A DNA stretch of 64,000 nucleotides from Planobacterium oryzisoli. Its GTDB lineage: Bacteria > Bacteroidota > Bacteroidia > Flavobacteriales > Weeksellaceae. This document shows positions 1,317 to 54,276 of the stretch, piece by piece. The notes under the pieces were generated by a model. The model searched no databases. It was not told the DNA's origin and saw nothing but the letters and a program-made list of their open reading frames with translations. Position 1 is the first letter of the stretch. Each line of letters opens with the position of its first letter. Both the position numbers and the translations under genes were made by a program. The stretch spans positions 1-64,000 of the forward strand of contig NZ_JADKYY010000004.1 in the NCBI RefSeq assembly GCF_015354315.1, in the 5' to 3' direction.

Positions 1317-1339
1317 TATAACGTATAACTACATTTAAT

Positions 1340-2536: not shown

Positions 2537-2558
2537 TATTATCTTATTTTTAAACAAA

Positions 2559-2690
2559 ATGCTTAAGCTTACGAAAGAGGTTTCTTCAATTCACTTAGTT
2601 TTTCTTCTAATTGGAGTTTTTCTAGCATCGCTGTTAAGTTATTTTTCAATCAAAGTAATCTTAATTATTTTACTTATCCATTCAGAATAG
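2559..2690 (+). pseudogene. N-terminal piece of the Wzy-like polymerase, out of frame with the rest
   Basis: An ATG at 2559 opens a 43-codon reading frame made almost wholly of hydrophobic residues (two helix-like stretches) that ends at TAG 2688-2690. The next frame (-1 relative to this one) is open without a start from about 2567 and becomes hydrophobic after about 2675, running into the polymerase. The simplest reading is one gene of roughly 395 codons broken by a single-base change in the T-rich stretch 2665-2680. A sequencing error or a true mutation are both possible. Confidence 0.55.
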
Positions 2691-2752
2691 TTTGTTTAAT
2701 TTTTGCCAGTATTATTATTTTCAATAACCTAACAATTAAGACGCCTAAGGCT

Positions 2753-3748: not shown

Positions 3749-3757
3749 TTTTGTAAA

Positions 3758-4366
3758 ATGTATAAAGTTTTTCTTAAAAGAATTATAGATTTAGTACTAG
3801 CTTCAGTAGGGTTTGTGCTATTAAGTCCACTTTTTATTTTTACAACAATTAGTTTATATTTAGCTAACAATGGTAAACCTTTTTTCTTCCAAACCAGACC
3901 GGGAAAAGACGGAAAGCTCTTCCGTATCATTAAGTTCAAAACCATGACCGATAAAAAAGATGCTGATGGAAATCTCTTGCCTGATGCCGAAAGACTAACG
4001 TCAATCGGTAGTTTTGTAAGAAGAACCTCATTGGATGAGATTCCGCAATTAATCAATGTTATAAAAGGAGATATGTCGCTCATTGGCCCCAGGCCATTAT
4101 TGCCACAGTATCTTGAACGTTACAACGATTTTCAACGGCGTAGAAACGAAGTAAAGCCAGGAATTACCGGCTGGGCTCAGGTCAATGGCAGAAATACCAT
4201 TTCCTGGGAGAAAAAATTTGAATACGATGTATGGTATGTAGATCATATCAGCTTTTTATTAGACTTGAAAATTCTTTTTTTAACCATAAAGAAAGTTTTT
4301 ATTAGAGAAGGAATTTCACAGGAAGGACAGGCTACCGCAGAAGAATTTAAAGGAAATTTACAATGA
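3758..4366 (+). CDS. initiating phosphosugar transferase, PglC-like bacterial sugar transferase
   Basis: Monotopic phosphoglycosyl transferase that moves a sugar phosphate from a UDP-sugar to undecaprenyl phosphate, starting the repeat unit. One N-terminal hydrophobic re-entrant helix (about residues 8-32, KRIIDLVLASVGFVLLSP) is followed by the catalytic core. DEIPQL carries the Asp-Glu pair, and MSLIGPRPLLPQY and KPGITGWAQVNGRN are family signatures. At 202 residues it matches the short PglC form, not the long WbaP/WcaJ form. It overlaps the next gene by 4 bases (ATGA), so the PglC-PglD-PglE-like trio is co-translated; the likely substrate is a bacillosamine-type sugar. Confidence 0.92.
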   Translation: MYKVFLKRIIDLVLASVGFVLLSPLFIFTTISLYLANNGKPFFFQTRPGKDGKLFRIIKFKTMTDKKDADGNLLPDAERLTSIGSFVRRTSLDEIPQLINVIKGDMSLIGPRPLLPQYLERYNDFQRRRNEVKPGITGWAQVNGRNTISWEKKFEYDVWYVDHISFLLDLKILFLTIKKVFIREGISQEGQATAEEFKGNLQ

Positions 4367-4977
4367 TCGTTTTATTTGGAGCAAGTGGACATGCAAAGCC
4401 AATTTTGGATATTTTCTTTCAGAACGGAGAAACAGTGGCTAAAATACTGGATGATAATCCCAAAGTTTCAGAAATCTTTGGTGTAGAAGTTGTGAAAAAT
4501 AATTTTGATTTAGATTACAATCAAAATGCAGTTATTTCGATTGGAAACAACCGTATTCGTAAAAAAATAGCTAAAGAATTACCTTTTAATTATATCAAAG
4601 CTGTTCATCCCAAATCTTCTGTGTCAGATTTGGCTCAGCTAGGAGAAGGAACAGTGGTTATGGCTAATGTTTCCGTGAATCCGGATGCGCTGATTGGCGA
4701 ACATTGTATTTTGAATACGGGTTGCGTGATTGAGCATGATTGTAAAATCGGTGATTATGTTCATATTTCACCAAATGCATCGTTAGCCGGCGATGTTTCT
4801 GTGGGTGAGGGAAGTCATATTGGTATTGGTGCATCAGTAATACAAGGAATTAAGATTGGAAAATGGGCTACGATTGGCGCCGGAGCCGTTATTATAAAAG
4901 ATATTCCGGATTTTGCTATAGTAGTTGGGAATCCCGGAAAGATTATTAAAATAAAAACAGAAGAAAATGAACTCTAA
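4363..4977 (+). CDS. sugar O/N-acetyltransferase, PglD/NeuD-like
   Basis: Acetyl-CoA-dependent transferase acting on a UDP-4-amino sugar. An N-terminal Rossmann-like part (GASGHAKPILDIF, residues 5-17) precedes a left-handed beta-helix of hexapeptide repeats (residues ~90-190). The PglD-type catalytic histidine is in VIEHDCKIGD, and the C-terminal IVVGNPGKIIK is typical. 204 residues fits the family. It lies between PglC-like and PglE-like genes and overlaps the latter by 11 bases, which suggests UDP-N,N'-diacetylbacillosamine or a related sugar. The matching 4,6-dehydratase (PglF) is not in this window. Confidence 0.9.
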   Translation: MIVLFGASGHAKPILDIFFQNGETVAKILDDNPKVSEIFGVEVVKNNFDLDYNQNAVISIGNNRIRKKIAKELPFNYIKAVHPKSSVSDLAQLGEGTVVMANVSVNPDALIGEHCILNTGCVIEHDCKIGDYVHISPNASLAGDVSVGEGSHIGIGASVIQGIKIGKWATIGAGAVIIKDIPDFAIVVGNPGKIIKIKTEENEL

Positions 4978-6100
4978 AATTTGGCTTTCCTCTCCACATA
5001 TGGGAGGCAACGAACAGAAATATATCAACGAAGCATTTGCTGAAAACTGGGTGGCACCTTTAGGTCCTAATGTTAATGAATTTGAGATTGATCTCAAAAA
5101 TTTTTTGGGACAGAATTCAGAGATTGCTGCATTAAGTGCGGGAACAGCAGCATTACATTTGGCACTAATCATCCTTGATGTAAAGTTTGGTGATGAAGTC
5201 ATTTGCCAAAGTTTTACCTTTTCAGCATCCGCCAATCCCATCACTTATCAGGGTGCTACGCCTATTTTCATTGACAGCGAAACCGATACGTGGAATATTT
5301 GTCCGAAAATGCTTGAACAAGCAATAGAGGACAGAATTTCTAAAGGTAAAGTTCCTAAAGCAATAATCGTGGTTCACTTGTACGGAATGCCTGCCAAAAT
5401 GGATGAAATTATAACAGTGGCAGACCGTTACGGGATACCAGTTTTGGAAGATGCAGCGGAATCATTAGGCAGCTCTTATAAGGGCCAAAAATGCGGCACC
5501 TTTGGAGAAATGGCTATCTTAAGTTTTAACGGTAATAAGATCATTACTACTTCAGGCGGCGGAGCATTAGTATGTAAAACTCCAGAACAAAAAAACCGCG
5601 CAGTTTATTTATCTACACAAGCTAGGGATCATGCGCCGCATTATCAGCACTCGGAAATTGGATACAACTACCGAATGAGTAATATATGTGCTGGCATTGG
5701 TAGAGGGCAAATGGAAGTCTTAGACGAGAGGGTTCAAGCAAGGAGAGCGAATCATTTCTTTTATGTGGAATTATTTAAAGAATTTGAAGGAATTGAAGTT
5801 CTGTCCGAGCCTAACGAGGATTATTTTTCAAATCATTGGCTATCGGCAATAGTGATTGATCAAAAGAAAGCTGGCTTTGGAAGAGACGATTTACGTCTTG
5901 CATTAGAAGCTGAAAATATTGAATCAAGGCCGCTTTGGAAGCCTATGCACTTACAGCCTGTATTTGCAGACTGCCCTTACTACGGGGGTGCTGTAGCAGA
6001 AGATTTATTTAATAGAGGCCTATGCTTGCCTTCCGGATCCAATTTGTCAGATGCCGATCGAGAGAGGATAAAAGAAGTAATCTTACGATTTAAAAAGTAA
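4967..6100 (+). CDS. DegT/DnrJ/EryC1-type PLP aminotransferase, PglE-like
   Basis: Pyridoxal-phosphate aminotransferase converting a 4-keto-6-deoxy nucleotide sugar to the 4-amino sugar. SAGTAALHLALI (about residue 56) forms the PLP phosphate region, EDAAESLGSSYKG the PLP-ring aspartate site, and SFNGNKIITTSGGGALV contains the Schiff-base lysine. 377 residues is full length. It starts inside the end of the acetyltransferase gene, and the three consecutive activities match the Campylobacter pglCDE order (possibly acting on a rare amino sugar that starts the glycan). The 4-bp gap to rfbC suggests the same transcript. Confidence 0.92.
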   Translation: MNSKIWLSSPHMGGNEQKYINEAFAENWVAPLGPNVNEFEIDLKNFLGQNSEIAALSAGTAALHLALIILDVKFGDEVICQSFTFSASANPITYQGATPIFIDSETDTWNICPKMLEQAIEDRISKGKVPKAIIVVHLYGMPAKMDEIITVADRYGIPVLEDAAESLGSSYKGQKCGTFGEMAILSFNGNKIITTSGGGALVCKTPEQKNRAVYLSTQARDHAPHYQHSEIGYNYRMSNICAGIGRGQMEVLDERVQARRANHFFYVELFKEFEGIEVLSEPNEDYFSNHWLSAIVIDQKKAGFGRDDLRLALEAENIESRPLWKPMHLQPVFADCPYYGGAVAEDLFNRGLCLPSGSNLSDADRERIKEVILRFKK

Positions 6101-6104
6101 GAAT

Positions 6105-6650
6105 ATGCAACTGCAAGAAACTCTTTTAAAAGACTGTTATATTCTCTCACCTACACTGTTTGAAGATTCCAGGGGCTATTTTTATGAAAAATTTAATGAG
6201 CGAGCGTTTGAACAGCAAACTAATCTCAATGGTAATTTTGTACAGGATAATATCTCTAGATCCATCTATGGTGTTGTTCGGGGAATACACTTACAAGAAG
6301 GCGGGCATGCACAGGCAAAATTAGTATCTTGTTTGGAGGGTAGAGTCTGGGATGTAGCAGTGGACCTACGAAGAAACTCTCCTACCTTTGGACAGTGGTA
6401 CGGTATTGAACTGTCAGCGGAGAATAAACTTCAACTCTATGTTCCAAGAGGTTTTGGTCACGGGTTTTCCGTGCTTTCCGAAACAGCTATATTTTCATAC
6501 AAGTGCGATAATTATTATAATAAAGAATCAGAAGGAGGGATCGTGTGGAACGATCCGGATTTAAATATAGATTGGAAATTACCCTTAGAAGATATTATCC
6601 TTTCCGATAAGGACAAAATTCTTCCTACTTTTGCAGAAGGTAACTTCTGA
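6105..6650 (+). CDS. rfbC: dTDP-4-dehydrorhamnose 3,5-epimerase
   Basis: Cupin-fold epimerase of the dTDP-L-rhamnose pathway, cytoplasmic. The N-terminus has YFYEKFNERAFEQQT, the active-site histidine lies in GVVRGIHLQ (about residue 62), and VPRGFGHGFSVLSE is the second catalytic/substrate region. 181 residues is the normal size. It is followed by rfbB and rfbA in the same direction. The reductase rfbD is not found next to them, so either it lies elsewhere or the end product is a different dTDP-6-deoxy sugar. Confidence 0.95.
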   Translation: MQLQETLLKDCYILSPTLFEDSRGYFYEKFNERAFEQQTNLNGNFVQDNISRSIYGVVRGIHLQEGGHAQAKLVSCLEGRVWDVAVDLRRNSPTFGQWYGIELSAENKLQLYVPRGFGHGFSVLSETAIFSYKCDNYYNKESEGGIVWNDPDLNIDWKLPLEDIILSDKDKILPTFAEGNF

Positions 6651-6661
6651 AATATATTATT

Positions 6662-7762
6662 TTGAATCAACTATCCTCTTTTAAAACCATATTCATTACC
6701 GGTGGCGCTGGCTTTATAGGATCCCACGTAGTCCGGGAATTTGTAACCAACCTTCCTAAAACCACTATTGTAAATCTCGATGCGCTAACTTATGCTGGAA
6801 ATCTCGAGAACCTTAAGGATGTTGAGCATCTTCCTAACTACAGATTCGAAAGAGTTGACATAACGAATACTGTGGCGCTTGCTGAGGTATTTAATAGGTA
6901 TACACCAGATGCAGTGGTGCACCTTGCTGCAGAGAGCCATGTAGATCGCAGCATTACTGACCCCAACGCTTTTATCCAAACAAATGTTATGGGTACTGCC
7001 AATCTACTTAATTTGTGTAGGACTATTTGGAAATTCAATCCCGAACATGCCCATGGAAGATTTTCATTAGAAGAGAGACAAAACTTATTCTATCACATTT
7101 CCACCGACGAAGTGTACGGCTCTCTTGGTGAAAAAGGTCTATTTACTGAGACCACTCCGTACGATCCCAAATCGCCCTATTCTGCTAGCAAAGCAGCCTC
7201 TGATCATCTAGTTCGCTCCTATGGAAATACCTACGGCCTGCCGTATATCCTATCTAACTGCTCTAATAACTACGGTCCAAACCATTTTCCCGAAAAACTC
7301 ATTCCACTTGCTATCAATCAGATAATCAATGAGAAACCTATTCCGATATACGGTGATGGGGATTATACTCGGGACTGGTTGTATGTGGTAGACCATGCGA
7401 AGGCGATATTTCAGATTTTCCATGAAGCTAGAACGGGTGAAACTTACAATATTGGTGGATTTAACGAGTGGAAAAACATCGATTTAATAAGGGAGCTTAT
7501 TTCGCAAATGGATAAGAAGCTAAGAAGACCAGAAGGGTATTCTTTGAAGCTCATGGAATTTGTAAAAGACCGACCAGGTCACGATAAGCGCTATGCCATT
7601 GATGCTAGCAAGTTAAACAGGGAGCTAGGCTGGAAGCCAAGCGTCACGTTTGAGCAGGGACTTTCAAAAACCATTGATTGGTTTTTGGAAAATAGAGAAT
7701 GGCTGGATAATGTGACGAGTGGTGAGTACCAAAAGTATTACGAATCGCATTACAATAATTAG
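6662..7762 (+). CDS. rfbB: dTDP-glucose 4,6-dehydratase
   Basis: Extended short-chain dehydrogenase that makes dTDP-4-keto-6-deoxyglucose. The NAD-binding motif TGGAGFIGSH begins at residue 14, STDEVYG holds the catalytic Thr-Asp-Glu, and YSASKAASD supplies the YxxxK pair. GDGDYTRDWLYV and the C-terminal RPGHDKRYAIDASK are diagnostic of RfbB. 366 residues is full length. The start is taken at TTG 6662 because no in-frame ATG precedes the Rossmann motif; the stop of rfbC is 12 bases upstream. Confidence 0.95.
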   Translation: MNQLSSFKTIFITGGAGFIGSHVVREFVTNLPKTTIVNLDALTYAGNLENLKDVEHLPNYRFERVDITNTVALAEVFNRYTPDAVVHLAAESHVDRSITDPNAFIQTNVMGTANLLNLCRTIWKFNPEHAHGRFSLEERQNLFYHISTDEVYGSLGEKGLFTETTPYDPKSPYSASKAASDHLVRSYGNTYGLPYILSNCSNNYGPNHFPEKLIPLAINQIINEKPIPIYGDGDYTRDWLYVVDHAKAIFQIFHEARTGETYNIGGFNEWKNIDLIRELISQMDKKLRRPEGYSLKLMEFVKDRPGHDKRYAIDASKLNRELGWKPSVTFEQGLSKTIDWFLENREWLDNVTSGEYQKYYESHYNN

Positions 7763-7783
7763 TATTCCACCAATAACAACTTT

Positions 7784-8641
7784 ATGAAAGGTATTATCCT
7801 AGCAGGTGGTTCAGGAACCAGGCTTTACCCTCTTACGATAGCCGTAAGTAAGCAGCTTATGCCTGTTTACGACAAGCCAATGATTTATTATCCTCTTTCT
7901 GTGTTACTGCTTGCAGGAATTAGAGAGATTCTGATAATAACTACCCCTGAGGATCAGAAATCTTTCCAGAAATTACTTGGTGATGGTAGTGCTTTAGGAT
8001 GTACATTTGAGTATAAAGTACAACCGTCTCCGGACGGCCTAGCCCAAGCCTTCATTTTGGGTGAAGAATTCATAGGAAGAGATTCCGTGGCACTCGTTCT
8101 GGGCGATAATATTTTTTATGGTTCTGGGCTTTCAGAGCTTCTTGCAAGTAAAACTAGCATCCACGGAGGATGCGTATTTGCGTATCAGGTTTCAGACCCG
8201 GAAAGATATGGAGTCGTACAGTTTGATGAAAAATTAAAAGCAATTTCTATCGAAGAAAAACCAGTGAGACCTAAATCCAATTTTGCGGTTCCTGGTCTTT
8301 ATTTTTACGATAACTCGGTGGTCCAGTACGCTAAGAATTTAAAGCCCTCTCCAAGGGGCGAGCTGGAAATTACCGATATAAATAAGATTTACTTGGAAAA
8401 AGGTCAGTTGGAAGTAGGAGTCATGAGTAGAGGTACTGCATGGCTTGATACTGGGACTTTTGACTCGCTACATGAAGCCTCGGAGTTTGTGAAGGTACTT
8501 GAAAAAAGACAGGGCTTTAAGATTTCCTGTATTGAAGAAATAGCCTACAAGAAAGGTTTTATAACGAAAGAGCAGCTCTTGGAATCTGCCGAAAAATACG
8601 GTAAAAGTGGTTACGGTGAATATCTACGTAGCATAGTTTAA
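7784..8641 (+). CDS. rfbA: glucose-1-phosphate thymidylyltransferase
   Basis: Makes dTDP-glucose from glucose-1-phosphate and dTTP, the entry step for dTDP-6-deoxy sugars. The N-terminal nucleotide-binding motif is [13 protein letters not shown] (residues 6-18). VLGDNIFYG carries the metal-binding Asp, and [14 protein letters not shown] and TAWLDTGT are family signatures. 285 residues is normal. Last gene of the sugar locus: a strong terminator follows 23 bases after the stop. Confidence 0.96.
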
Positions 8642-8663
8642 ATTCCATTACCTCTTAAAGAAT

Positions 8664-8700
8664 AAAACGCCTCGGATATTTGAATTTCGAGGCGTTTTTT
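8664..8700 (+). terminator. intrinsic terminator after rfbA
   Basis: AAAACGCCTCG (8664-8674) pairs with CGAGGCGTTTT (8688-8698) around a 13-nt loop, and the 3' arm runs into a T tract. It closes the polysaccharide operon; the A tract on the other side would also allow termination from the minus strand. Confidence 0.9.
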
Positions 8701-9005
8701 CTTTCGTGTGCATGTGGTTTTGAAGCAATTATAGGCTCTTTCTTTTTTTCACGGGATGTCAATACTTCAGTCTTTAACCTATTTCTTGACTTTTTTAGGA
8801 CCTATATTTAAGAATCACGATGATTAAAAAATACAATTCGTCCAGATAGTTGGCTTGAAGCACGCAAAATTGTCCATTACAGTCCAGATTTTATGTTTAT
8901 AGTCCTTGAGCTAGTACATATGACGAATTAGCAAAAGTTTTTAGTGAGATTTGCTCAAGAGATGATTCCAATAGAGGAATTCTTCTTTTTGTAAATCCTA
9001 CCACC
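8701..9005. other. gene-free junction between the sugar locus and the conjugation module; candidate oriT/left boundary
   Basis: No convincing gene. The stretch lies directly upstream of the relaxase gene, where oriT usually sits in MOBP elements. It contains TTGAAGCA at 8720-8727 and 8855-8862, three GTCC copies between 8871 and 8904, and a 7-bp inverted repeat CTTGAGC/GCTCAAG (8905-8911 and 8953-8959). TTTTGAAGCAA at 8718-8728 recurs at 30559-30569 beyond the other end of the module. None of these alone proves an attachment or transfer origin. Confidence 0.3.
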
Positions 9006-10427
9006 ATGATCGTAAAAATTCTTAGTTCTAAAGGTGACTCTTTTCATGCCGTGCGCTATACCACAAGCAAAGTGCAAAAAGGCCAAGGTGAACTGCTCCT
9101 AATGGAAAACTTTCCAAAGGGCTTCTCAAAATCCTCTTCTGCTGGCAAAGTACGAGCATACTATAAAGAGCTAGGTGATAGAAACGCACGCTGTAAGAAA
9201 AAGCAATTTCATATGGTACTTTCCTCAAGATACCAATCCGAGAAATCCTCTAGATGCTTGGAGGGTGCGCGAAGTGTCATGCAAGGATTAGGGTATAAAG
9301 ACCAACCGGTTATTTATGTGGAGCATCGTGACACGGAAAACACCCATTTGCACGTAGTGTCTGTTCGTGTAAATGTACATACTGGTAAAGTGATCTCAGA
9401 TTTCTGGGACGGTATTAGAGCTTATAAAGAACTAAGCCTATTCAAGAATCAAGACCACACTAAGAAAATTAAGGACCTGTTGTCGTATAAAATCCAAAAC
9501 TTGGAGCATCTTAAAATTCTGCTTTTCCGCGGTGGGTATAAGATATTCCCCTGCAAAAAAGACGAAGGAATTTACAAAGTGTTCCGTGGAGTTGTTCTAC
9601 ATAGTTTTAATCCAAATGATTTGGGCATAAGTAAATCGCCTTCCAAGGAAAGCGCTACAAGAGTGCTTTCTATAGCTAAAAAAAAGGCTATAGAATATTC
9701 CCCGCTACTATTTACAGTAAATAGTGACCGTAAAGAACCGGTAGTAAGAGAAGGCGTATCAAGGGCATTTACCAAGGAACTGCAAAGTGAACTTCAAAGC
9801 CATTTAAAAAGGAACCTTGGGATAGACATTATTCTTGAGCGAGCAGGAACAAATGCAGATCGCTTACTTGGTGGACTTGTAATCGATCACGACTCCAAGG
9901 AAGTGTATCCTCTGGATCAAGTAGTAGGATTACAGAATCAGTTTAATTTGACAAAAGAGGAAATTTCCAAAAGGGAGTTTTTACGACTTCAGAACTACGA
10001 AATTTCTTCCATTGCTCAAAGAGATCTACTTCTTTCAGCATTAAAGAATCCTTCTATAAAGCCGTTCATGGTATTTAATTCTAAGGAAAAGAAAAGGCCA
10101 GAGACTATGGATTTAATAGCCCAGGATGCGTTAAGCTCTACCGAAGGCTGCTTTATAAAGGGCGCAAAAATAGTACTTGATCTCGAGGGCAGCGAATTCC
10201 ATTTTTTACACCAACGCCTGCATTTTCTAGGAGAACTCAAGTCTCTTATCGGAAATGACCGTTACCAGGAATTTGAAAAATCACCCAAAGCGATGCAGTT
10301 AAGGACTTTGCACGAGTCCCGGAAAATGCTTCCGGTGCAACAACCTAAAGCGCAAGAAAGAACTGCTTATTCCCCGGACGTATCCAACACAGAGTCCAAG
10401 CGGCAGCATCAACTTATTAAAAGGTGA
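9006..10427 (+). CDS. relaxase/mobilization nuclease (MobB-like)
   Basis: Relaxase that nicks and covalently holds one strand at oriT for conjugative transfer. The N-terminus MIVKILSSKGDSFHAVRYTTSKVQ and the metal-binding histidine motif NTHLHVVSVRVN (about residues 113-124), preceded by VEHRDTEN, match the Bacteroidetes MobB / Pfam relaxase type. The catalytic residue is likely one of the tyrosines in the first 60 residues. The C-terminal ~250 residues have no domain I recognise. 473 residues is usual for the family. It overlaps the ParA-like gene by 4 bases (GTGA). First gene of the transfer module; no RHH-type accessory gene (MobA) is seen next to it. Confidence 0.88.
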   Translation: MIVKILSSKGDSFHAVRYTTSKVQKGQGELLLMENFPKGFSKSSSAGKVRAYYKELGDRNARCKKKQFHMVLSSRYQSEKSSRCLEGARSVMQGLGYKDQPVIYVEHRDTENTHLHVVSVRVNVHTGKVISDFWDGIRAYKELSLFKNQDHTKKIKDLLSYKIQNLEHLKILLFRGGYKIFPCKKDEGIYKVFRGVVLHSFNPNDLGISKSPSKESATRVLSIAKKKAIEYSPLLFTVNSDRKEPVVREGVSRAFTKELQSELQSHLKRNLGIDIILERAGTNADRLLGGLVIDHDSKEVYPLDQVVGLQNQFNLTKEEISKREFLRLQNYEISSIAQRDLLLSALKNPSIKPFMVFNSKEKKRPETMDLIAQDALSSTEGCFIKGAKIVLDLEGSEFHFLHQRLHFLGELKSLIGNDRYQEFEKSPKAMQLRTLHESRKMLPVQQPKAQERTAYSPDVSNTESKRQHQLIKR

Positions 10428-11029
10428 TTATTTCCTGCACCTCACCCAAAGGAGGCTCAGGAAAAAGTACCGTAAGTCTTTTTCTCTCCAAGTATTTGGC
10501 TTTTAAGGGATATAGAGTCCTGCTTTATTCCAGTGATTTGAGCGCTGTGCTCCCTTTAGAACGGGGTACACTTAATTACGAAGTATCGGTAGAAATACAG
10601 AGCTTTCCTGAGGTATCGACGCTGCTGCAAGACGTAGAACAGAATAAAACACCACATACGGTTCAAATAGTAGACCTAAAGGATCCTTTACAATTTGAAA
10701 TCCTAGAGGTTCTGGAATTATCCGATTTAATTGTAATTCCTTGCCCGCCCACTGCGTTAAGTATCCAGAGTAATCTCGTATTTCTTTCGTACTTGAAAGA
10801 AATGGAGTTGCAACATAAAGTTTTAGTGCTGTTCAACCAATGTAGTAACATTCGAAAATATTCTCAGATCAAAACGATGGAAATGCACCTACTAGGAACA
10901 GTGCAGATTATAAAACAAACCTTGCCCAATCTGGCCCTTTTCGAACACATAGCTCTCCAACCTATAACTGAAGAGGAGTTTAGAATCTTAGAGCCAGTTT
11001 TTAGCCCGATTTATTGCCTTATAAAATAA
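10424..11029 (+). CDS. ParA/MinD-like ATPase, conjugation TraA-type
   Basis: Small Walker-type ATPase. The deviant Walker A motif KGGSGKST is at residues 9-16, preceded by a short beta strand. The GTG start overlaps the relaxase stop; no ATG is available before the P-loop. 201 residues is at the small end for ParA. Bacteroidetes conjugative elements commonly have a ParA-like TraA at this position; whether it places the transfer machinery or helps maintain the element is not shown. The typical switch Asp is less clear, with DLKD near residue 85 in its place. Confidence 0.8.
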   Translation: MIISCTSPKGGSGKSTVSLFLSKYLAFKGYRVLLYSSDLSAVLPLERGTLNYEVSVEIQSFPEVSTLLQDVEQNKTPHTVQIVDLKDPLQFEILEVLELSDLIVIPCPPTALSIQSNLVFLSYLKEMELQHKVLVLFNQCSNIRKYSQIKTMEMHLLGTVQIIKQTLPNLALFEHIALQPITEEEFRILEPVFSPIYCLIK

Positions 11030-11041
11030 AAGACTCTCCCC

Positions 11042-11902
11042 ATGACAGAAAACAGTATGTCTATTCCAACCTATTTGGTCGCACTATTTGCGCTGTACGG
11101 AGCGTACTTTATATCCAACCTGATTTACGATCTGTATTTTAAACTTAAGGGTAGGGCCTCCAACGAAAGTTCCTCCCTATATTCCACCTACGAAATCGAG
11201 CAGGAGAAGCCCGAGCAGGTCTTGGTAGAAGAACAGTCTCTGCCTGTGGAGCGCTCTTACGTTTGGGAGGAGGGGGAAGAGATATCTAATGATCTCCAGA
11301 ACCAGAGGAGTTGCACTCAGACGGATCTCTCTTTATCCGCTGGAAGCGAAGATCAGCCAGCACTGCTACTTCATGAAAGTGAAAATGAGGAAGAATACAA
11401 TTCCACTCCGGAAACACATGGAAAGGAAGACTCCGCTTTAGAAAAACTTTCGTTTGAGGAGCAAGAATTTGATGAGAAATCTTCTCACCATCTTGGAGAA
11501 AAAGCGCCCATTAGTAACGTACTCTCCGGTGAAAGTAACTATATGAAAGCAGAGCCCCAATCTTCTGTAGTATTTAGACCCCCAGTAAAAGAGGCCAGCA
11601 ATCAGAAATCAGAAATCTCCGAAGAAAATAGAGCTAACGCGCAAAAAACATTGGCCTCTTCCCCGCGCACGCAGAAGGGCTCCATTTCAACTACTAAAAA
11701 ACCGGTAGTGTCAAAAGAGCGCGCAAAAATGGAGAATCTGTTTTTAGAATCTTCCCTAAATGAACCCGCGCCAAAAGACGTTCTTGAGGAGAAAAAATTA
11801 AAATGGAAAAAACTATTGGAGCTTTCTCAAACCTCGGTGGAAATCCAAAATAAGGACGGACAGATAACCTACCGATCGCTTCTTAATGCTAAAGAAGGCT
11901 AA
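11042..11902 (+). CDS. membrane-anchored acidic protein of the transfer module, function unknown
   Basis: Not recognised. One hydrophobic segment (about residues 8-30, PTYLVALFALYGAYFISNL) is followed by a long polar, Glu/Ser-rich, probably disordered stretch (residues 45-215). A basic, Lys-rich C-terminus with an EKKLKWKKLLEL helix follows. The layout is of a single-span anchor with a flexible cytoplasmic tail. Its place between the ParA-like gene and traE is where Bacteroidetes elements carry the poorly conserved TraB/C/D genes. Starts 12 bases after the ATPase; a 100-base gap follows before traE. Confidence 0.75.
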   Translation: MTENSMSIPTYLVALFALYGAYFISNLIYDLYFKLKGRASNESSSLYSTYEIEQEKPEQVLVEEQSLPVERSYVWEEGEEISNDLQNQRSCTQTDLSLSAGSEDQPALLLHESENEEEYNSTPETHGKEDSALEKLSFEEQEFDEKSSHHLGEKAPISNVLSGESNYMKAEPQSSVVFRPPVKEASNQKSEISEENRANAQKTLASSPRTQKGSISTTKKPVVSKERAKMENLFLESSLNEPAPKDVLEEKKLKWKKLLELSQTSVEIQNKDGQITYRSLLNAKEG

Positions 11903-12005
11903 ACCAACTAAGAGAGAGCGTATCAATCCGTACTTAGCCCCAAGCCTTACCATTCAAAAGATTAACAATTCAACTACTAACAATTAATCCATTAAATACT
12001 TTATT

Positions 12006-12332
12006 ATGACACAATTTATTACCTCAAAACGTACGCTATTCAAAATCGCGCTACTTGCTCTATTCTGTTTCTCCTACGCACCGATGATGGCGCAGTACGG
12101 AGGCGCTAGTGCCCTGTCGGGAGCCAACACCTCCATACGTGCCTATTGGGAGCCCATGAAGCTGATCATTCAGGCCATAGGCGCTGTGGTGGGTCTTATC
12201 GGTGGCGTTCGTATCTATAACAAATGGACCAACGGGGACCAGGATATCAATAAAGAAATCGTCGGCTGGGCCGGAGCCTGTCTTTTCCTTGTAATCGTTC
12301 CTCAATTCGTAGGCGCTTTCTTTGGTCTCTAA
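12006..12332 (+). CDS. traE: conjugation protein TraE (DUF4134), VirB2-like pilin candidate
   Basis: Small protein with a cleavable-looking signal peptide (MTQFITSKRTLFKIALLALFCFSYAPMMAQ) and two membrane spans, AIGAVVGLIGGVRIYNKW and EIVGWAGACLFLVIVPQFVGAFFGL. The layout, the 108-residue length and the position just before TraF and TraG match the TraE family, thought to be the pilin-like VirB2 counterpart of Bacteroidetes type IV secretion. The start is set by ATG 12006 after a ttatt leader like the one at 26261. The stop overlaps the ATG of traF by one base. Confidence 0.88.
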   Translation: MTQFITSKRTLFKIALLALFCFSYAPMMAQYGGASALSGANTSIRAYWEPMKLIIQAIGAVVGLIGGVRIYNKWTNGDQDINKEIVGWAGACLFLVIVPQFVGAFFGL

Positions 12333-12616
12333 TGCAGTATAAGATCTATAGGGGTCTTAAAAAGCCCCTACTTCTCTTTGGTCTTAAGGACCGATTCATC
12401 TATCAGGCGTTGGGAGCAGGCGCTATCGGCCTTCTTTTGGCAGTGCTTCTTTCCACCCTTTTTGGAATACTAGGAATGCTTCTAGGTCTTGCCTTGGGCG
12501 CAGGTCTTATAGCGCTTGTCTACAAAAGACAAGATAGCCAAGGCCTGTACCCGAAAACGCGCTCTAATGGGACGCTCTACGTCTTTTCTCCAACCCTTAG
12601 TAAACGAAAACTATGA
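12332..12616 (+). CDS. traF: conjugation protein TraF (DUF4133), VirB3-like
   Basis: 94 residues with the Bacteroidetes TraF start pattern (YKIYRGLKKPLLLFGLKDRFIY) and a glycine-rich hydrophobic hairpin of two spans, GAGAIGLLLAVLLSTLFGILGMLLG and onwards. Counterpart of VirB3, an inner-membrane partner of the VirB4 ATPase. It overlaps traE by 1 base and traG by 4, so all three are translationally coupled. Confidence 0.88.
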   Translation: MQYKIYRGLKKPLLLFGLKDRFIYQALGAGAIGLLLAVLLSTLFGILGMLLGLALGAGLIALVYKRQDSQGLYPKTRSNGTLYVFSPTLSKRKL

Positions 12617-15606
12617 ACCTTCAAAAAAAGTCTTTTCATTTGCCCTACCTGGGATGCGATTTAGCAGAGGCCCAAGGCCTTCCCTACGATACGCTTGTGG
12701 GCCCGTTTGGAGAGCCCACCGTGGGGCTGGAGATTAGAAATCTGCCCCTGCAGTGGTGCTGCAATTCAAACAGCTATTCCAGTTACCACCGCGTGCTTCT
12801 TCAGATCTGTCAGATTCTGGGGGAAGGATATACCATTCAAAAACTGGACGTATTTACTAAGAAAACCTTTAATGCGGCCCCAAGAGAATCAGCCATCGAG
12901 AAGAAGTACGATGCCCATTTTAGTGGAAGAGCTTATAAAGAGCTTAGAACGTTTCTGCTTTTCTCTCCTCTTCTAAGCGCTACGAAAAGGAAAGGAATAA
13001 ATCTCTCTGAGGCTACCGCTTCCCTAACTCCTCTGAAGGAAAAGTTCTCTAAAATCTACCTGCTGCTTGATTCTGTTGGAGCACATCCAAAGTATCTGCG
13101 CCTTAAGGACTACGAAAACTACCTTGCCCTACTTTTTCAGGGCAAAGAGACTAGCACTCCCGTAAAGGAAAATATACTTTCGGGTCCGGAGTTTCTTCAG
13201 GTAGGAGAGATGCTACTAAAAACTGTCTCTCTGGTAGATCTTGAAGAGCTTTCCATTCCTGTAGATGTCTCTCCCAGTGCGTCTGACGGCAAAAACCTGG
13301 GCGCAGCGGTGGATCCTTTTTCCTTTCTGTTTGATCTTAAAGAATCTCCCCTTATAGTCTATAACCAGATCCTTCGAATTCCCTTGCAGTCGAAACTTCA
13401 CAGGGAACTGGAGCGAAAGAAAAAGCGCCACGAAGGGGTATCCAGCTCAGCTCCTTCCAATTTACTGGTAGCCCGTGAAATAGAATCACTCCTCGAAGAA
13501 GTAGCTCGCGAGGGGTCCCTACTCGTAGAAGGGCATTTTTCGGTGCTCTATAGTGCTGAGGATAAACTATCCCAGGAGAAGATCCAGGGATCTCTCGAGA
13601 CCGGCTTTTTCCGTCGCGGCATTGTGCTTTCCAAAAATGCATACAACCAAATGGAGCTTTTCCGCTCTTTCTTTCCGGGAGGGGCAGTAGAACTTAAGTC
13701 CTACGATTTCTTTTTATCGCCTTTGGAGCCTATGCTTTGCTTTTTATTTAAGGAGCATCTTCCCGAAAATGAATCCCGTGGGTTTGCACTAGACTTTACT
13801 TCCAGAGAGGGTATTCCTCTTCGTATTGATCCCTCGGACATTCCTATGCAGACGGGAAGGATCTCCAACCGCAATAAGTTTGTCCTAGGACCCTCGGGCA
13901 GTGGGAAATCTTTTCTTATGAATTCCCTAGTGGAGCAGTACCTTAGGTACAATTACGATGTGGTCATTGTGGACACCGGGGACTCCTACCAGGGTCTTAC
14001 ACGCTACAAGGAGGGACGCTACATTCAGTACTCCGAAAAGGATCCTATCACCATGAATCCTTTTCAGTTATCTAAAGAGGAACTCGGAATAGAAAAAATG
14101 GAGTTTCTCTCCAGCCTTATCTATCTAATATGGCAGGGACAGGAAAAGGAGATGAGTCCGAGTGAAAAATCGGTACTGGACTCCCTTCTTCTTTGCTACT
14201 ACGAGCTGTACTTTTTAAAGAAAGAGGGAATCGAAAACTACCCAGTAGAAAAAAGGACTGGTTTATACCAAAAATACCTCCCGTACGCCTCTGCGCTTTC
14301 CTCGAAGGGCAGCATAAGGAAAAATAACATTGGTGGTAGAAGTCTGCATACTGGATCCTCTACAAGCTACTATGAAGTTTTAGGAATAGAGTCCACTCTT
14401 CCCATAAAAGAGATCAGGCAACACGGGAAGCGACTGCAGGGGGAGATGCAGCAAGGAGGATTAGTGGATACGCCAGAGGTGCTCTCTGAGGCACTTACAG
14501 TTCTTTCCAATTACACCACCAAAAGGGCCTACGATAAGACGCTTGTTAGTAGCAGAGAGAAGATAGCAGCTTCCCTGCCGCATTTAAAACAAAAGGATCC
14601 AGTTACTGCGGAGGAAAAATTTCAGAACCTTCTTTTTCATCTAGCGCCCGAGGCACTCTGTTTTGATTCATTCTATAAGTTCTCAGAGCATTTTTTGCCT
14701 GTATTTTTAAATGGGGGGCAGCTTCCTATCTCGGAGGCTTCCTTTAACCAAAGCACCTTCTTTTTGGTGCTTCGGGATTTCTGCTCGGGCGGAAAGTATG
14801 GAGAGACCCTGAACCGACCCCAAGAGAAAAGCCTTTTTGAGGAGCAGCTCATAGTCTTTGAAATCGATGCCATAAAGGATAATCCTAAGCTCTTTCCTAT
14901 TGTTACCCTTATCATTATGGATACGTTCATTCAGAAGATGCGCTATAGAAAGGGTCGCCGTAAGGCGCTCATCATTGAAGAGGCCTGGAAAGCCATCGCA
15001 TCAAAACTCATGGGAGGCTACATACTCTACCTTTATAAGACGGTTCGAAAATTCTACGGTGAAGCCATTGTAGTAACGCAGGAACTTCAGGACATCCTTT
15101 CCAATCCGGTAGTGAAAGACTCCATCCTAAGTAACTCCGATACCTTAGTACTATTAGACCAGAGTAAATTCCAGGAGAACTACCAAAGCGTGGCGTCCCT
15201 ACTAAACTTAAATGCCGTGGAGCAAAGTAAGATCTTTACCATGAACCGCCTGGATAATAAAGAGGGTAGGGAAAGGTTTAAAGAATTCTATTTAAAACGG
15301 GGGGACTCGGGAGAAGTGTACGGTAATGAGGTGTCTCTGATGCAGTACCTTTTATACACCACCGAAAAGCCCGAAAAAGAGGCCCTGGAATTTTACTACG
15401 AAAATGCGGGGAGTCTTAATGAAGGGCTGGAGCGGTTCCTTTTGGACCATAAATCGCTTGGACTTTCCCTCTCCGAGATGGTCTCACTTGTGAATCTTTT
15501 AAAGAGACCTCTTAAATCGAGCGATGCCCTTAATTTTCAAAACATAAAAAAAGAATATCCTACAATAGACCCGTGGGAATTACTCCGAAAAGAGCTAGCT
15601 CAGTAG
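12613..15606 (+). CDS. traG: TraG (VirB4-type) conjugation ATPase with an internal J-like domain
   Basis: Motor ATPase of the conjugative type IV secretion system, at the inner membrane. Walker A GPSGSGKS is at residues ~426-433 and is preceded by the SNRNKFVLGP context of TraG. LIVFEIDAIKDNP, the Walker B region KALIIEEAWKAI (around 785) and TVRKFYGEAIVVTQELQDI match the family. At 997 residues it is about 170 longer than usual. The extra sequence lies between Walker A and B and includes residues ~584-644, which read like a J domain (YYEVLGI, EIRQHGKRL, ALTVLSNYTTKRAYDK) but lack HPD. The N-terminal ~400 residues are the VirB4-like membrane-associated part. Reading frame is intact across the insert. 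Confidence 0.92.
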   Translation: MNLQKKSFHLPYLGCDLAEAQGLPYDTLVGPFGEPTVGLEIRNLPLQWCCNSNSYSSYHRVLLQICQILGEGYTIQKLDVFTKKTFNAAPRESAIEKKYDAHFSGRAYKELRTFLLFSPLLSATKRKGINLSEATASLTPLKEKFSKIYLLLDSVGAHPKYLRLKDYENYLALLFQGKETSTPVKENILSGPEFLQVGEMLLKTVSLVDLEELSIPVDVSPSASDGKNLGAAVDPFSFLFDLKESPLIVYNQILRIPLQSKLHRELERKKKRHEGVSSSAPSNLLVAREIESLLEEVAREGSLLVEGHFSVLYSAEDKLSQEKIQGSLETGFFRRGIVLSKNAYNQMELFRSFFPGGAVELKSYDFFLSPLEPMLCFLFKEHLPENESRGFALDFTSREGIPLRIDPSDIPMQTGRISNRNKFVLGPSGSGKSFLMNSLVEQYLRYNYDVVIVDTGDSYQGLTRYKEGRYIQYSEKDPITMNPFQLSKEELGIEKMEFLSSLIYLIWQGQEKEMSPSEKSVLDSLLLCYYELYFLKKEGIENYPVEKRTGLYQKYLPYASALSSKGSIRKNNIGGRSLHTGSSTSYYEVLGIESTLPIKEIRQHGKRLQGEMQQGGLVDTPEVLSEALTVLSNYTTKRAYDKTLVSSREKIAASLPHLKQKDPVTAEEKFQNLLFHLAPEALCFDSFYKFSEHFLPVFLNGGQLPISEASFNQSTFFLVLRDFCSGGKYGETLNRPQEKSLFEEQLIVFEIDAIKDNPKLFPIVTLIIMDTFIQKMRYRKGRRKALIIEEAWKAIASKLMGGYILYLYKTVRKFYGEAIVVTQELQDILSNPVVKDSILSNSDTLVLLDQSKFQENYQSVASLLNLNAVEQSKIFTMNRLDNKEGRERFKEFYLKRGDSGEVYGNEVSLMQYLLYTTEKPEKEALEFYYENAGSLNEGLERFLLDHKSLGLSLSEMVSLVNLLKRPLKSSDALNFQNIKKEYPTIDPWELLRKELAQ
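14362..14544 (+). other. J-like domain inserted in the TraG ATPase, HPD motif absent
   Basis: Codons 584-644 of the TraG gene. Read by eye against DnaJ: YYEVLGI aligns to YYEILGV (helix I), IKEIRQHGKRLQGEM to EIRKAYKRLAMKY (helix II), and EALTVLSNYTTKRAYDK to EAYEVLTDSQKRAAYDQ (helix III plus the KRAYD end). Where HPD should follow helix II the sequence is QQGGLVDTPE, so it should not stimulate Hsp70 ATPase. J-like domains without HPD, such as Tim16/Pam16, act as binding modules; a structural role in TraG is inference. Confidence 0.72.
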
Positions 15607-15832
15607 GGAGTGACTTCTGACTAAACTAACAAGCTGTAGAAGAGTAGTAATCACTTGCCGTTAGTCTTGGTTACCGATCTAATTAAAAAATCTTTTTTAA
15701 TCCTTACCCCATAGAAAAATGCTTTCGGGATTTGTGCGAATTACCACCAAGCATAGTTGCCATCGAATGCACGTACCTAAAATATTTAATGAGGTACCGC
15801 AGTTATCCCTTATGCCCTACAATTTATACACT
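15607..15832. other. gene-free stretch after traG
   Basis: Nothing gene-like. It holds an AT-only inverted repeat, ATTAAAAAA (15682-15690) against TTTTTTAAT (15693-15701), with a 2-base loop. The frame of the next gene is open from 15719 but the first ~38 codons do not look coding; the signal peptide starts at 15833. This is the largest gap in the front part of the transfer module and may hold an internal promoter. Confidence 0.4.
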
Positions 15833-16489
15833 ATGTACTATTACTTGATTCCTTTTCTTTTGGTGTTAAGCGGCTTTTTAAGCGCGCAGAATACCTATAT
15901 CGATCCCACCACAACTGCAGCGCTACTTCTCTACAGCAGCGAGCTTAAAAAGTCGCAGGAGAAAACGCTTGTGGAGCAAAAGAATCTGCAAAAAGCGCAA
16001 CTTTTTCTCTCCTCCCAGATGGCGGCCGTCTCCTCCTTACAGCAAAAAGTGTTTAAGGGCCTCTCCGAGGTTTCTACGAGCCTCTCGGGAGGAATTAAAG
16101 TAAAAGAAATTTACTCGGATCTTTCCGAGTGCGCAGGCCTTTTACGGCGTATTGGATTGCTCACTGCCCAGGCGCCCCAGTACGCCGTCTTTGGCGCAAA
16201 GGCCTCGGAAGAAACCTACCACCGTACACTTGCAATGACCTCTGAGATCTCGGAGCTACTTCAAGGCGGAGAGCTTAACCTAATGCTTGCAGGAGATCGC
16301 TACCGCCTTCTTTTTTCCCTTTCAGAAAAAATAAAGACCCTTAAAATGCATCTTTTCTCGATTTCCTTTGCGATGGAACGGGCCGCGCGCCTGGGTTTCT
16401 TACGGGCCCTAAACCCCTTCCAGGGATACATCAATACCGACAAATCCATAGTGGAGGAAATCATGCGCCGCTACAAACATTCGTTCTAA
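15833..16489 (+). CDS. exported protein 1 of 4 in the TraI position
   Basis: Function unknown. ATG 15833 is chosen because it gives a signal peptide, MYYYLIPFLLVLSGFLSAQ, cut after SAQ. The 218-residue product is then mostly alpha-helical and periplasmic. It ends with DKSIVEEIMRRYKHSF (from residue 203), a tail shared by the next three products. The position between TraG and TraJ is that of TraI in CTnDOT-like elements, and the helical content with QKNLQKAQ-type repeats fits a VirB5/TraI-like component. The stop overlaps the next ATG by one base. Confidence 0.8.
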   Translation: MYYYLIPFLLVLSGFLSAQNTYIDPTTTAALLLYSSELKKSQEKTLVEQKNLQKAQLFLSSQMAAVSSLQQKVFKGLSEVSTSLSGGIKVKEIYSDLSECAGLLRRIGLLTAQAPQYAVFGAKASEETYHRTLAMTSEISELLQGGELNLMLAGDRYRLLFSLSEKIKTLKMHLFSISFAMERAARLGFLRALNPFQGYINTDKSIVEEIMRRYKHSF

Positions 16490-51453: not shown

Positions 51454-54276
51454 TTAGAACCAGCCTCTACGGAAATGGTTGATAAGGGCCCCGAAATTTA
51501 GATTTAGAGTGTATCGGATGCGTTTGGAGTAGTCGTCTAGCGAGGGTTCAAATCCCAGGGAAGATTGTACAGGAAAATAAATTTCAAGAAAATCCGGGAT
51601 GAGCTTGAGTTTTACCCCACTGTCCCAGATAAACGCGGCGCGGGTATCGCGGTTTTGGAATACCCCGGCATCGGCGTAGATATTGAACATCTTCCAGACG
51701 TGGGCATCGAGGTTCGTGGAGACAATCCACTTATCCACCGAAGAGCCTACGTGGCTCTTGAATCCCCCTTCGGCCGGTACGTACTGCTGGGAGAGAATCC
51801 CCTCCGTGGCACTCTGACCCAGAAGATTGTAGGAGAAAGCGTAGTTGGAGACCCTTGAGACTCCAAAATCAAAGAGGTCGTTTCGGGTATTGTTCTTAAA
51901 GAACGTACCTGCAAAGAGCCGAAGCGCAATCTTCTTGTTCTCTGCGTACTCGTAGCGGTAGGAACCCTCCACCGAGAGCTTCTGAAAATCGTGCATCATC
52001 TGGTAGTTTGCGCCAAAGCTGATCTCATGGATCATCTTGGAATCCACATACCCGTAGCCCAGATTCCACAGGCCGTACTTGTCGTATTCGTTATTTTGCA
52101 CCATCTCCGGGGTGAGGTCTTTCTCAAAGTGGCTGTAGGAAAAATAGAGCGAGCGGTTGATCTCCGAGCGCAGGACTTTGGAGAAATTTAGACTCGAGGA
52201 GAGGGAGAGCTTTTTATAGGTCAAATCCTTATCGTAGTGGAAGGTGGAGCCCGAGGCTCCTATCTGAAGGGTCCTGAAGAAGGCATCCACGGGTCTAAAG
52301 GCATAGGATGCCGAGGCCGAGCCGGTGAACTTTCCGGGTCCGGTACTGTAGTACGGCGAGATACTATAGAGGAAATTCTGCTCAAAGAGGGATTTGTTCT
52401 GAAGGGTCATTCCCAGCTGCACCTTGTCGTAGGCATTGAAATTCAGCTTCGGGGAAATGTAGATCTCGTTGTACTCGGGATCGGGAATATCTTTAAGAAG
52501 CTTGAGCCGTATTTTTTTGGTGTTGGAAAAAAGTCCCTTGGTATAGAGGTAGTTGTCCCGGTAGTTACTCTCTGGGAAGAGGTATCCGTCGTTGAGCTGG
52601 ATTTTTCTAACATCCTCTTTGGGAATAAGGTATTCTCCACTGTGGCGCCCGTCGTGGGTATCGTACCAGAAGGCTGAGGTCTTTCCCTCGCTGTCTTCCG
52701 AGGTGATCTTTAAAGGGATTCCGTACTCGGTGTTCTTAAAGATCTTCACCAAATACCCCTCGTCGGTCTTTCGGTATTTCTTAAGGTTGAAGTTCAGCCG
52801 GTTCTCTTCAAAGAGGTGGGTCTGGAGAAAATCAGAGGAATATTGGGAGGCGATGCTTAGCCGGTCTAAAAAATCACCCGCGTCTATTTTCTCCAGGCTG
52901 TGGTCCTTCAAATAACTACGCACATAGAGCTCAAAGGTCTCTGGCCCCATCTTCTCGGCGATGTAATTAAAGAGACTCCCCATCTGGAAATGGCTGATGG
53001 CCATATCGTTGAAATTCGAGAGCACAGGGAACGGAGTGGCTATCTTCTGGTCCAGGTTCTGGTTCATGATGTACTGGTAGGCCAGACCGTAGCGCTCCGT
53101 AAGCTTCAGGCGCGAGACCGTTAGGTATTTTAAGGGGCGAATACCAAAGATGCTGGCCTGCTGGGGAAGGTCCCCGATAAGTCCTGCCTTAGGATAGTAG
53201 GTCTTTAGGTACTGCATCTCCAGATAGGTTTTAAGACCGTTCTTTAGCCAGTGGTTGGGAGCTTTCTCGGTGATCAGGCCCTGATTGATTACTTTCTTGG
53301 AGAGAATACTGAAATAGTCCATATCGGTTTTTTCCGAGTCCGAGAACATCTGGAACTTGAATTTCCAGAATTTGATATCGTCGTTACCGAAGAATTCTTC
53401 TTTTTTTCTGAATTTCTCGCTGATAAGCAGCTTGGGAGAATAAAGCCCCAGTCGGTTTGCTACAAAATTCAAATGGATCGGTGCAAGCATCGAGAGGGTA
53501 GAGAGCTCCTCTGTGGGGAGGGGATAGGAGAACACCACATCCGTAGGACCCTTTCCCGTCTCTACCGATAAAGTGGTAAAAGGGCCGTGGCCGATGATAA
53601 TCTCAGGGTCCTCCCGAAGCAGGCCCTGGAACCTTTCGCCCGAGCGCACAAGGTTACTCTCCGCTACAAATCCCGCGGGAAGTTCAAGCGTGATGTCCCA
53701 AGCGGCGCCTCCGCTCTGGGTTTCTTCCGTATCTTTATAGGTCCTGGAATAGTTATCCGTAGCGGCCCTCTCCTCTGGGGAGAAAAATGCATCGGGCGTA
53801 AGAAAAAAGTATTTTAAGTGCGCTCCATGCTCTGTGTAGCCGTAGCCGGTGAATTCTGCACTGGGAAGAGTAAGGGTATAGGAAAGCGAGAGGGTAGTAC
53901 GCGCTCCCGGGGAAAGGGAAGTCTGCAAAGGGATATCGAGCCTCTCCTCATTAAGATCTATCTCCAAGGGGGTGCCCTCCACCAGAAGTTCACTTAAGTA
54001 GCCGAGTTTCTCTCCGCCCGCAAAATAAAGTGCCTTCTCCCGGTCTTCAATTTTTCGTTTGGCCAGTGAGGTGACCTCGTTGCGGTAGGCTGCAATCCAG
54101 TTCAAAAGCCGGATCTGCTCAAGAGGCTGCTCAAGGGTATTGGTGTATTCGATCTGTTGCGAGACCTTTACGGTGCGAAGGTCCGGATGTACCGTAGCGT
54201 CAATGCGCACCGAGTGCTGGGCCTTTATGTAGCCCAAACATCCAAACAACAGACACCAACACAGCGTAAATCTCAT
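51454..54276 (-). CDS. M1-peptidase-like domain with lost zinc site, fused to an outer-membrane beta-barrel
   Basis: 940 residues from ATG 54276, which gives a signal peptide (MRFTLCWCLLFGCLGYIKAQ). Residues 25-~400 follow the M1 (gluzincin) layout: N-terminal beta domain, then IKFWKFKFQMFSDSEKTDMDYFSIL. Where the HEXXH motif should be is KKVIN (residues 327-331). The third zinc ligand, normally Glu in WLNEGFA, is Asn346 in HWLKNGLKTYLE. GAMEN is also missing. Residues ~600-940 are amphipathic beta-strands ending in NHFRRGWF, as in a barrel. Likely an inactive, surface-exposed binding or scaffold protein. Confidence 0.85.
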   Translation of the reverse strand: MRFTLCWCLLFGCLGYIKAQHSVRIDATVHPDLRTVKVSQQIEYTNTLEQPLEQIRLLNWIAAYRNEVTSLAKRKIEDREKALYFAGGEKLGYLSELLVEGTPLEIDLNEERLDIPLQTSLSPGARTTLSLSYTLTLPSAEFTGYGYTEHGAHLKYFFLTPDAFFSPEERAATDNYSRTYKDTEETQSGGAAWDITLELPAGFVAESNLVRSGERFQGLLREDPEIIIGHGPFTTLSVETGKGPTDVVFSYPLPTEELSTLSMLAPIHLNFVANRLGLYSPKLLISEKFRKKEEFFGNDDIKFWKFKFQMFSDSEKTDMDYFSILSKKVINQGLITEKAPNHWLKNGLKTYLEMQYLKTYYPKAGLIGDLPQQASIFGIRPLKYLTVSRLKLTERYGLAYQYIMNQNLDQKIATPFPVLSNFNDMAISHFQMGSLFNYIAEKMGPETFELYVRSYLKDHSLEKIDAGDFLDRLSIASQYSSDFLQTHLFEENRLNFNLKKYRKTDEGYLVKIFKNTEYGIPLKITSEDSEGKTSAFWYDTHDGRHSGEYLIPKEDVRKIQLNDGYLFPESNYRDNYLYTKGLFSNTKKIRLKLLKDIPDPEYNEIYISPKLNFNAYDKVQLGMTLQNKSLFEQNFLYSISPYYSTGPGKFTGSASASYAFRPVDAFFRTLQIGASGSTFHYDKDLTYKKLSLSSSLNFSKVLRSEINRSLYFSYSHFEKDLTPEMVQNNEYDKYGLWNLGYGYVDSKMIHEISFGANYQMMHDFQKLSVEGSYRYEYAENKKIALRLFAGTFFKNNTRNDLFDFGVSRVSNYAFSYNLLGQSATEGILSQQYVPAEGGFKSHVGSSVDKWIVSTNLDAHVWKMFNIYADAGVFQNRDTRAAFIWDSGVKLKLIPDFLEIYFPVQSSLGFEPSLDDYSKRIRYTLNLNFGALINHFRRGWF

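Follow-up and report, generated by a model that had tools for sequence, protein, structure and literature searches.

Related systems

Omp85 proteins carry a loop, L6, between strands 11 and 12 of their barrel, and at least one POTRA domain is usual, though not universal, in Omp85/TpsB proteins. TamA/TamL and BamA of the Bacteroidota share with the protein described here the 16-stranded barrel and the long segment that joins its strands 11 and 12; they also have POTRA domains and the PF01103 signature, neither of which this protein possesses. PlpD and the other Omp85 fusions (patatin, WD40, PF00149 phosphoesterase) join an N-terminal enzyme-like domain to a 16-stranded barrel, as here (PMC11116518, PMC4104836); PlpD has one POTRA domain and our protein none, and, unlike in the PlpD-type fusions, the barrel is undetectable as Omp85 by sequence and the catalytic residues are lost. 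The enzyme domain of PlpD, once thought to be displayed outside, was found only in the periplasm (PMC11116518). Since the text of an Omp85 survey reports fusions to patatin, WD40, and PF00149 and names no peptidase family (PMC4104836), fusions to an M1 domain, whether active or dead, seem not to have been described in the literature searched, where we found neither an M1-barrel protein of Bacteroidota nor a function for one.

The first ~490-600 residues of our protein have the same fold as the M1 zinc metallopeptidases (PF01433; ERAP1, IRAP, aminopeptidase N, tricorn factor F3). The helix pair of the HEXXH...E site is still predicted, but the zinc ligands, the general base, the catalytic Tyr, and the GxMEx motif are all gone, and after the beta-sandwich a barrel follows where the larger M1 enzymes have the helical domain IV. 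Yeast Tma108 also has an M1 fold in a protein treated as a pseudopeptidase, and a non-enzymatic role, the binding of polypeptides (nascent chains), has been reported for it; unlike our protein, it is cytosolic and ribosome-associated, keeps nearly all active-site residues, and has no barrel (PMC11266112). The intact class-wide M1-barrel proteins of the Bacteroidia (L091, L098-L105, L115-L119, L146-L171, L222-L261) share full-length homology and domain order with it, and they keep GGMEY and HEVGHNWFYG...WMDEG.

Gene and domain layout

The gene lies in a window of 64,000 nucleotides, which is the whole stretch of DNA analysed, from a 2.1 Mb Weeksellaceae assembly. As the sequence-only reading had described, it is an open reading frame of 940 codons at 51454-54276; it lies on the minus strand, running from 54276 to 51454, uninterrupted from Met to stop. 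The nearest named relatives of its product belong to Chryseobacterium and Epilithonimonas, with 48-52% identity. The AlphaFold model of the 940-residue protein, for which 60 homologues were the input, has a mean pLDDT of 91.2 and a pTM of 0.89, and the predicted architecture runs from a signal peptide through an M1-fold region and a beta-sandwich to a 16-stranded barrel at the C-terminus. In the model, residues 21-250 are beta-rich, 251-490 are helical like an M1 catalytic domain, and 491-600 are all beta, while about 16 strands are found in residues 601-924. The features are as follows.

51454..54276, minus strand: whole gene, pseudo-M1 peptidase and outer-membrane barrel, 940 aa plus stop (ORF, translation, orthologue survey)
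54220..54276, minus strand: predicted signal peptide, ~residues 1-19, MRFTLCWCLLFGCLGYIKAQ (sequence; model helix 2-16; similar leaders in orthologues)
53527..54216, minus strand: M1 domain-I-like beta region, residues 21-250 (model, fold search)
52807..53526, minus strand: M1 catalytic-type region, inactive, residues 251-490 (sub-threshold PF01433 at 342-478; family profile; fold search)
52477..52806, minus strand: beta-sandwich linker, M1 domain-III-like, residues 491-600, no POTRA seen (secondary structure of the model)
51457..52476, minus strand: C-terminal 16-stranded barrel, residues 601-940, the best conserved part of the protein in the zinc-less clade (models, fold matches, identity by domain)
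51730..51891, minus strand: conserved long segment joining barrel strands 11 and 12, residues 796-849 (...NYAFSYNLLGQSATEGILSQQYVPAEGGFKS...), at the place of Omp85 L6 (models)

The single sequence of the window protein scores below the cut-off with Pfam Peptidase_M1 (PF01433; E 3.6e-4) and gave no match in a PDB sequence search. The family profile searched against the PDB found M1 aminopeptidases (glutamyl aminopeptidase at E 1.6e-10, tricorn factor F3, ERAP1), Foldseek matched the model to ERAP1 and IRAP at E 2e-18 over about 600 aligned columns, and the hhalign profile-profile comparison of the zinc-less family with the intact M1-barrel homologues gave E 1.8e-131 over 916 columns. Fold and sequence relationship both place the protein in the M1 fold superfamily, as an inactive homologue. 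A fold prediction without an M1 domain would have spoken against the sequence-only reading; the predicted fold does contain one, as the fold search indicates.

The lost zinc site

Class orthologues with an intact site align with the window protein without gaps through the zinc-site helix pair, and their HEVGH falls on S323-K327. No other register reproduces the 18-residue spacing that is canonical from second His to third ligand, here from K327 to N346, so SILSK represents the HEXXH register. The positions concerned are listed below.

53296..53310, minus strand: true HEXXH equivalent, S323-I324-L325-S326-K327 (SILSK), from alignment with the intact homologues, which have HE..H in 80/80
53284..53298, minus strand: KKVIN, residues 327-331, the site named earlier, one helical turn past the true HEXXH position
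53239..53241, minus strand: N346 at the position of the third zinc ligand (Glu), from alignment; Asn in 61/62 Weeksellaceae sequences
53383..53397, minus strand: E294-F-F-G-N298, equivalent of GGMEY (GAMEN-type), from alignment
52990..52992, minus strand: H429 at the position of the catalytic Tyr (VYxK), which is Tyr in 80/80 intact homologues

The sequence-only reading had given KKVIN as the remnant of HEXXH. Residues 327-331 (53284-53298) do read KKVIN, and no HEXXH occurs anywhere in the protein, but the register was mistaken, since it is SILSK that aligns with HEXXH, and the coordinates given for the zinc site were four residues off when judged by the alignment to intact homologues. Its other two observations were correct: the third ligand Glu is replaced by Asn, HWLKNGLKTYLE being present with Asn346, and the protein has no GAMEN.

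The HEXXH-18-E site is absent from the 93/93 non-redundant full-length clade proteins checked and present in 80/80 intact relatives, and neither a GxMEN-type motif (residues 294-298 are EFFGN) nor the catalytic Tyr (H429) is found in the window protein. The His, Glu, His, Glu, and Tyr columns, invariant in the 80 intact relatives, are all substituted in the zinc-less clade, with S/I/K/N at the ligand columns and H/S/Q/N at the Tyr column in Weeksellaceae, and K/T,A/N,Y/D at the ligand columns and K at the Tyr column in the Flavobacteriaceae-type proteins. Because each lineage has its own residues in place of the ligands, no single binding site has been kept. From the missing residues we infer that the window protein has no peptidase activity and holds no zinc; its orthologues are probably mis-annotated as metallopeptidases.

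Distribution and history of the loss

An orthologue is present in 271 of 297 Weeksellaceae genomes (about 91%), nearly always as one intact copy, and in a sample of 148 genomes from the order Flavobacteriales the window protein had a match in 78. The M1-barrel protein is absent from several Weeksellaceae genera and decayed in one genome, G057, whose copy has many stops, which indicates that some lineages can do without it. Homologues that keep the site come from deeper lineages of the Flavobacteriales and from the remainder of the class; they have the same layout, with HEVGH...E in 80/80. The family-profile search of class genomes gave some match in 116 of 119; many of the matches are full-length M1-barrel proteins with a complete zinc site, and others are ordinary M1 peptidases.

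The trees were built with the active-site columns removed (FastTree, 105 rows; IQ-TREE, 46 rows). All zinc-less proteins fall into one clade, with SH support of 98 and 100, the label changes once, and the sister of the clade is L091, an intact protein; no other loss of the zinc site was seen among the class-level loci examined. The history that these trees describe is that of a zinc site lost once, long ago, on one branch. A local mutation, which the sequence-only reading had considered as a way in which its claim might fail, can be set aside, and so can a sequencing error: an intact HEXXH is confined to orthologues from outside the clade, and every non-redundant full-length clade orthologue examined (93/93) lacks the site, so the loss is ancient rather than local. 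The result is a clear enzyme-to-pseudoenzyme transition placed on one branch. Its descendants number in the hundreds, and many intact relatives have the whole architecture in common with them, which allows a direct measurement of how constraint shifted from active site to barrel.

Full-length fusions of an intact-site M1 peptidase and a barrel are common in the class Bacteroidia (L146-L171, L222-L261, and many class genomes). One genome, G384, has two copies (L094, L095), one zinc-less and the other intact, and offers a natural pair for functional comparison. We also observed a second group of proteins, of about 1080 aa, with an intact M1 site (HEIGHNWF...NETYR..LDEGFTQ) and a C-terminal part that the family profile does not match.

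Constraint on the peptidase region and the barrel

Domain identities were compared between pairs matched for overall identity (0.38-0.50). Pairs from the intact clade share 51% of residues in the M1 catalytic region, 75% in the site, and 28% in the barrel; the corresponding values for zinc-less pairs are 43%, 45%, and 50%, and the segment between strands 11 and 12 has 34% identity in intact versus 59% in zinc-less pairs. In disjoint pairs, the mean difference of barrel minus M1 identity is -0.25 for intact and +0.14 for zinc-less proteins, with a p value of about 1e-10 to 1e-12 that is only indicative because disjoint pairs still share ancestry. The barrel is the variable part of the intact M1-barrel proteins, whereas in the zinc-less family it is the conserved part. 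The dN/dS of close pairs is mostly about 0.02-0.15 per domain, the lowest dN is that of the barrel in most zinc-less pairs, the most conserved stretch of the zinc-less clade is the segment of residues 796-849, and the clade-wide invariant residues concentrate in the barrel.

These comparisons, made at the level of sequence, show a transfer of constraint away from the peptidase and onto the barrel with its L6-like segment, under purifying selection. A protein that has been retained, with a barrel held tighter than the former enzyme, points to a different outer-membrane job. The barrel of the intact sister L091 has 35% identity to the zinc-less clade and 29% to other intact proteins; being somewhat closer to the former, it raises the possibility that the barrel may have started changing before the zinc site was lost.

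Likeness of the barrel to Omp85

The barrel modelled alone has a pLDDT of 91.7. Its best 50 PDB fold matches are all of the Omp85/TpsB/Sam50 type (TamA, BamA, Sam50, FhaC, CdiB), at E 4e-7 to 2e-5 and TM 0.4-0.54 with large rmsd, a moderate fit; with about 16 predicted strands and these best 50 matches, it conforms to the Omp85-type 16-stranded fold, and the strand order of the models places the 54-residue segment (796-849) between strands 11 and 12. The C-terminal outer-membrane barrel that had been proposed from the sequence is thus borne out by the full-length and barrel-alone models, and with it the combination of a pseudo-peptidase (M1 fold, no zinc site) and a predicted barrel.

Pfam finds no family for the barrel and PF01103 has no hit at the locus, and hhalign detected no homology to the barrels of Bacteroidota BamA/Omp85 (probability 0.9%); by sequence, with these two tools, membership in Omp85 is rejected. 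No POTRA domain was seen in the secondary structure or by Pfam, residues 491-600 being all-beta and sandwich-like. The motif at the L6 place is LLG(R/Q)S...EGGFKS; the canonical RGF/RGY motif is missing in most family members, and [VILA]RG[FYW] occurs anywhere in 3/55 barrels. A phylum-wide search with the barrel alone returned essentially only the M1-barrel family, confined to the class. Since there is no sequence match and no POTRA domain, and the RGF-type motif is mostly missing, the predicted barrel is better called Omp85-like in fold than a proven member of Omp85.

When an even-stranded barrel follows a secreted N-terminal domain and the C-terminus comes after the last strand, both ends are expected in the periplasm. 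With both barrel ends there, the M1 region would be periplasmic and the 54-residue segment would lie on the outer side, as in BamA/TamA. By this topological reasoning on the modelled 16 strands, with both ends on one side, the pseudo-M1 region probably faces the periplasm and not the surface. The surface exposure assumed by the sequence-only reading is not supported, as the strand number, the position of the ends, and the Omp85-like segment between strands 11 and 12 all favour the periplasm, as for BamA, TamA, and PlpD.

Genomic context

The gene has no consistent operon partner; its neighbours are housekeeping genes that differ between lineages, namely uvrA, a LOG-family gene, and a 2-oxoacid dehydrogenase in Flavobacteriaceae, and pyrEF/DsbA-like/YceI in Weeksellaceae (names read from sequence). 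With such lineage-specific neighbours, a function based on an operon is ruled out. An LpxH-like phosphoesterase (name likewise read from sequence) stands beside intact loci: in three class-level genomes checked, intact M1-barrel genes are immediately followed by a look-alike of the LpxH type (lipid A synthesis), for example L189 4508-5260 next to 5267-8272.

SprA and GldM are absent in both genomes of the window genus, G000 (the window assembly) and G022, which both keep the protein, and SprA is present in 10/10 tested genomes that lack the protein or have only a decayed copy. This distribution in the tested genomes rules out a component of type IX secretion. The type IX secretion system itself seems to have been lost in G000 and G022, as both SprA and GldM are missing there; unlike in these two, SprA was found in all other Weeksellaceae genomes tested. 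A role as a subunit of the BAM complex was also rejected, since the published BAM complexes of three Bacteroidota species (F. johnsoniae, B. thetaiotaomicron, P. gingivalis) include no M1-type subunit (PMC12611786, PMC12578637).

Possible function

The account that we favour, and regard as plausible rather than probable, is that of an ancient, order-wide outer-membrane protein whose M1 zinc aminopeptidase module was inactivated once and kept as a scaffold for Omp85-like assembly or translocation. The barrel would span the outer membrane, its two ends on the periplasmic side, and the pseudo-M1 region beneath it, much like POTRA domains, would dock a partner or an unfolded client polypeptide. 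The function itself would be carried out by the conserved barrel and the L6-like segment, which most likely help a subset of outer-membrane proteins or lipids through assembly, quality control, or translocation. The M1 module of the intact relatives would act as a periplasmic aminopeptidase anchored to the membrane. Points against this scaffold are the moderate TM-scores and large rmsd of the fold matches, the lack of Omp85 sequence homology, of a POTRA domain, of the canonical RGF/RGY motif in most members, and of an operon partner, the absence from the three published BAM complexes, and the patchy presence. The stronger proposal of a new class of Omp85-like biogenesis/translocation factor, in which a dead aminopeptidase replaces POTRA as the periplasmic adaptor for clients or partners and which evolved once from an active membrane-anchored M1 peptidase, is arguable and, for now, doubtful. 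The analysis exposes a widely conserved outer-membrane protein of the Flavobacteriales whose barrel resembles the protein-assembly barrels BamA and TamA.

The barrel and its inner-loop-like segment, as the most constrained parts, would also suit a substrate-specific outer-membrane channel or receptor that moves a small molecule in or out, with the pseudo-M1 region as a periplasmic cap or gate, and patchy loss in some genera fits a dispensable transporter. We consider this unlikely: no TonB box or plug domain was identified, the fold matches are Omp85 assembly/secretion barrels and not porins or receptors, and presence in about 91% of Weeksellaceae genomes with variable neighbours argues for housekeeping over the handling of one nutrient.

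A surface pseudo-peptidase, in which the M1 cleft still captures extracellular peptides and may hand them to the barrel for uptake, agrees with the kept M1 fold and with the cleft residues conserved in Weeksellaceae (H342 62/62, N346 61/62, W343 61/62, G347 62/62, and the invariant D409, Q410, and N423). However, the M1 region is the fast-evolving part of the zinc-less clade, a domain N-terminal to an even-stranded barrel should lie in the periplasm, and the ligand-position residues vary (S/I/K/N in Weeksellaceae, K/T/N/D in Flavobacteriaceae), all of which makes this explanation distinctly improbable. Lineage-specific conserved polar residues near the old site (K323 in the Flavobacteriaceae-type, H342 and N346 in Weeksellaceae) could hint at an active hydrolase with a non-zinc or relocated site; with invariant residues concentrated in the barrel and no catalytic-type residue set invariant clade-wide in the M1 region, the chance of this is very small. 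That the gene is a degenerating relic, its enzyme function gone and its sequence drifting to decay, is scarcely credible, because the minority of genomes in which it is absent or decayed (many stops in G057; several genera without the gene) is set against the long open frame that the great majority retain, a dN/dS far under 1 for every domain, and a barrel identity above that of the active clade, so that conservation already contradicts it and dN/dS together with the open frames rules out pseudogene drift.

Additional observations

A barrel-rich outer-membrane protein of ~1070 aa is encoded near the gene in many Chryseobacterium-like genomes (L122 15075-17987; L123 14221-17430); it does not adjoin the gene in the window. 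In G004 and G014, proteins of similar size (~1070 aa) are encoded next to the gene, and these give weak matches to the SprA profile. The GC content of window positions 1-16000 is 39%, versus 48-49% elsewhere in the window, a contrast that suggests a foreign segment.
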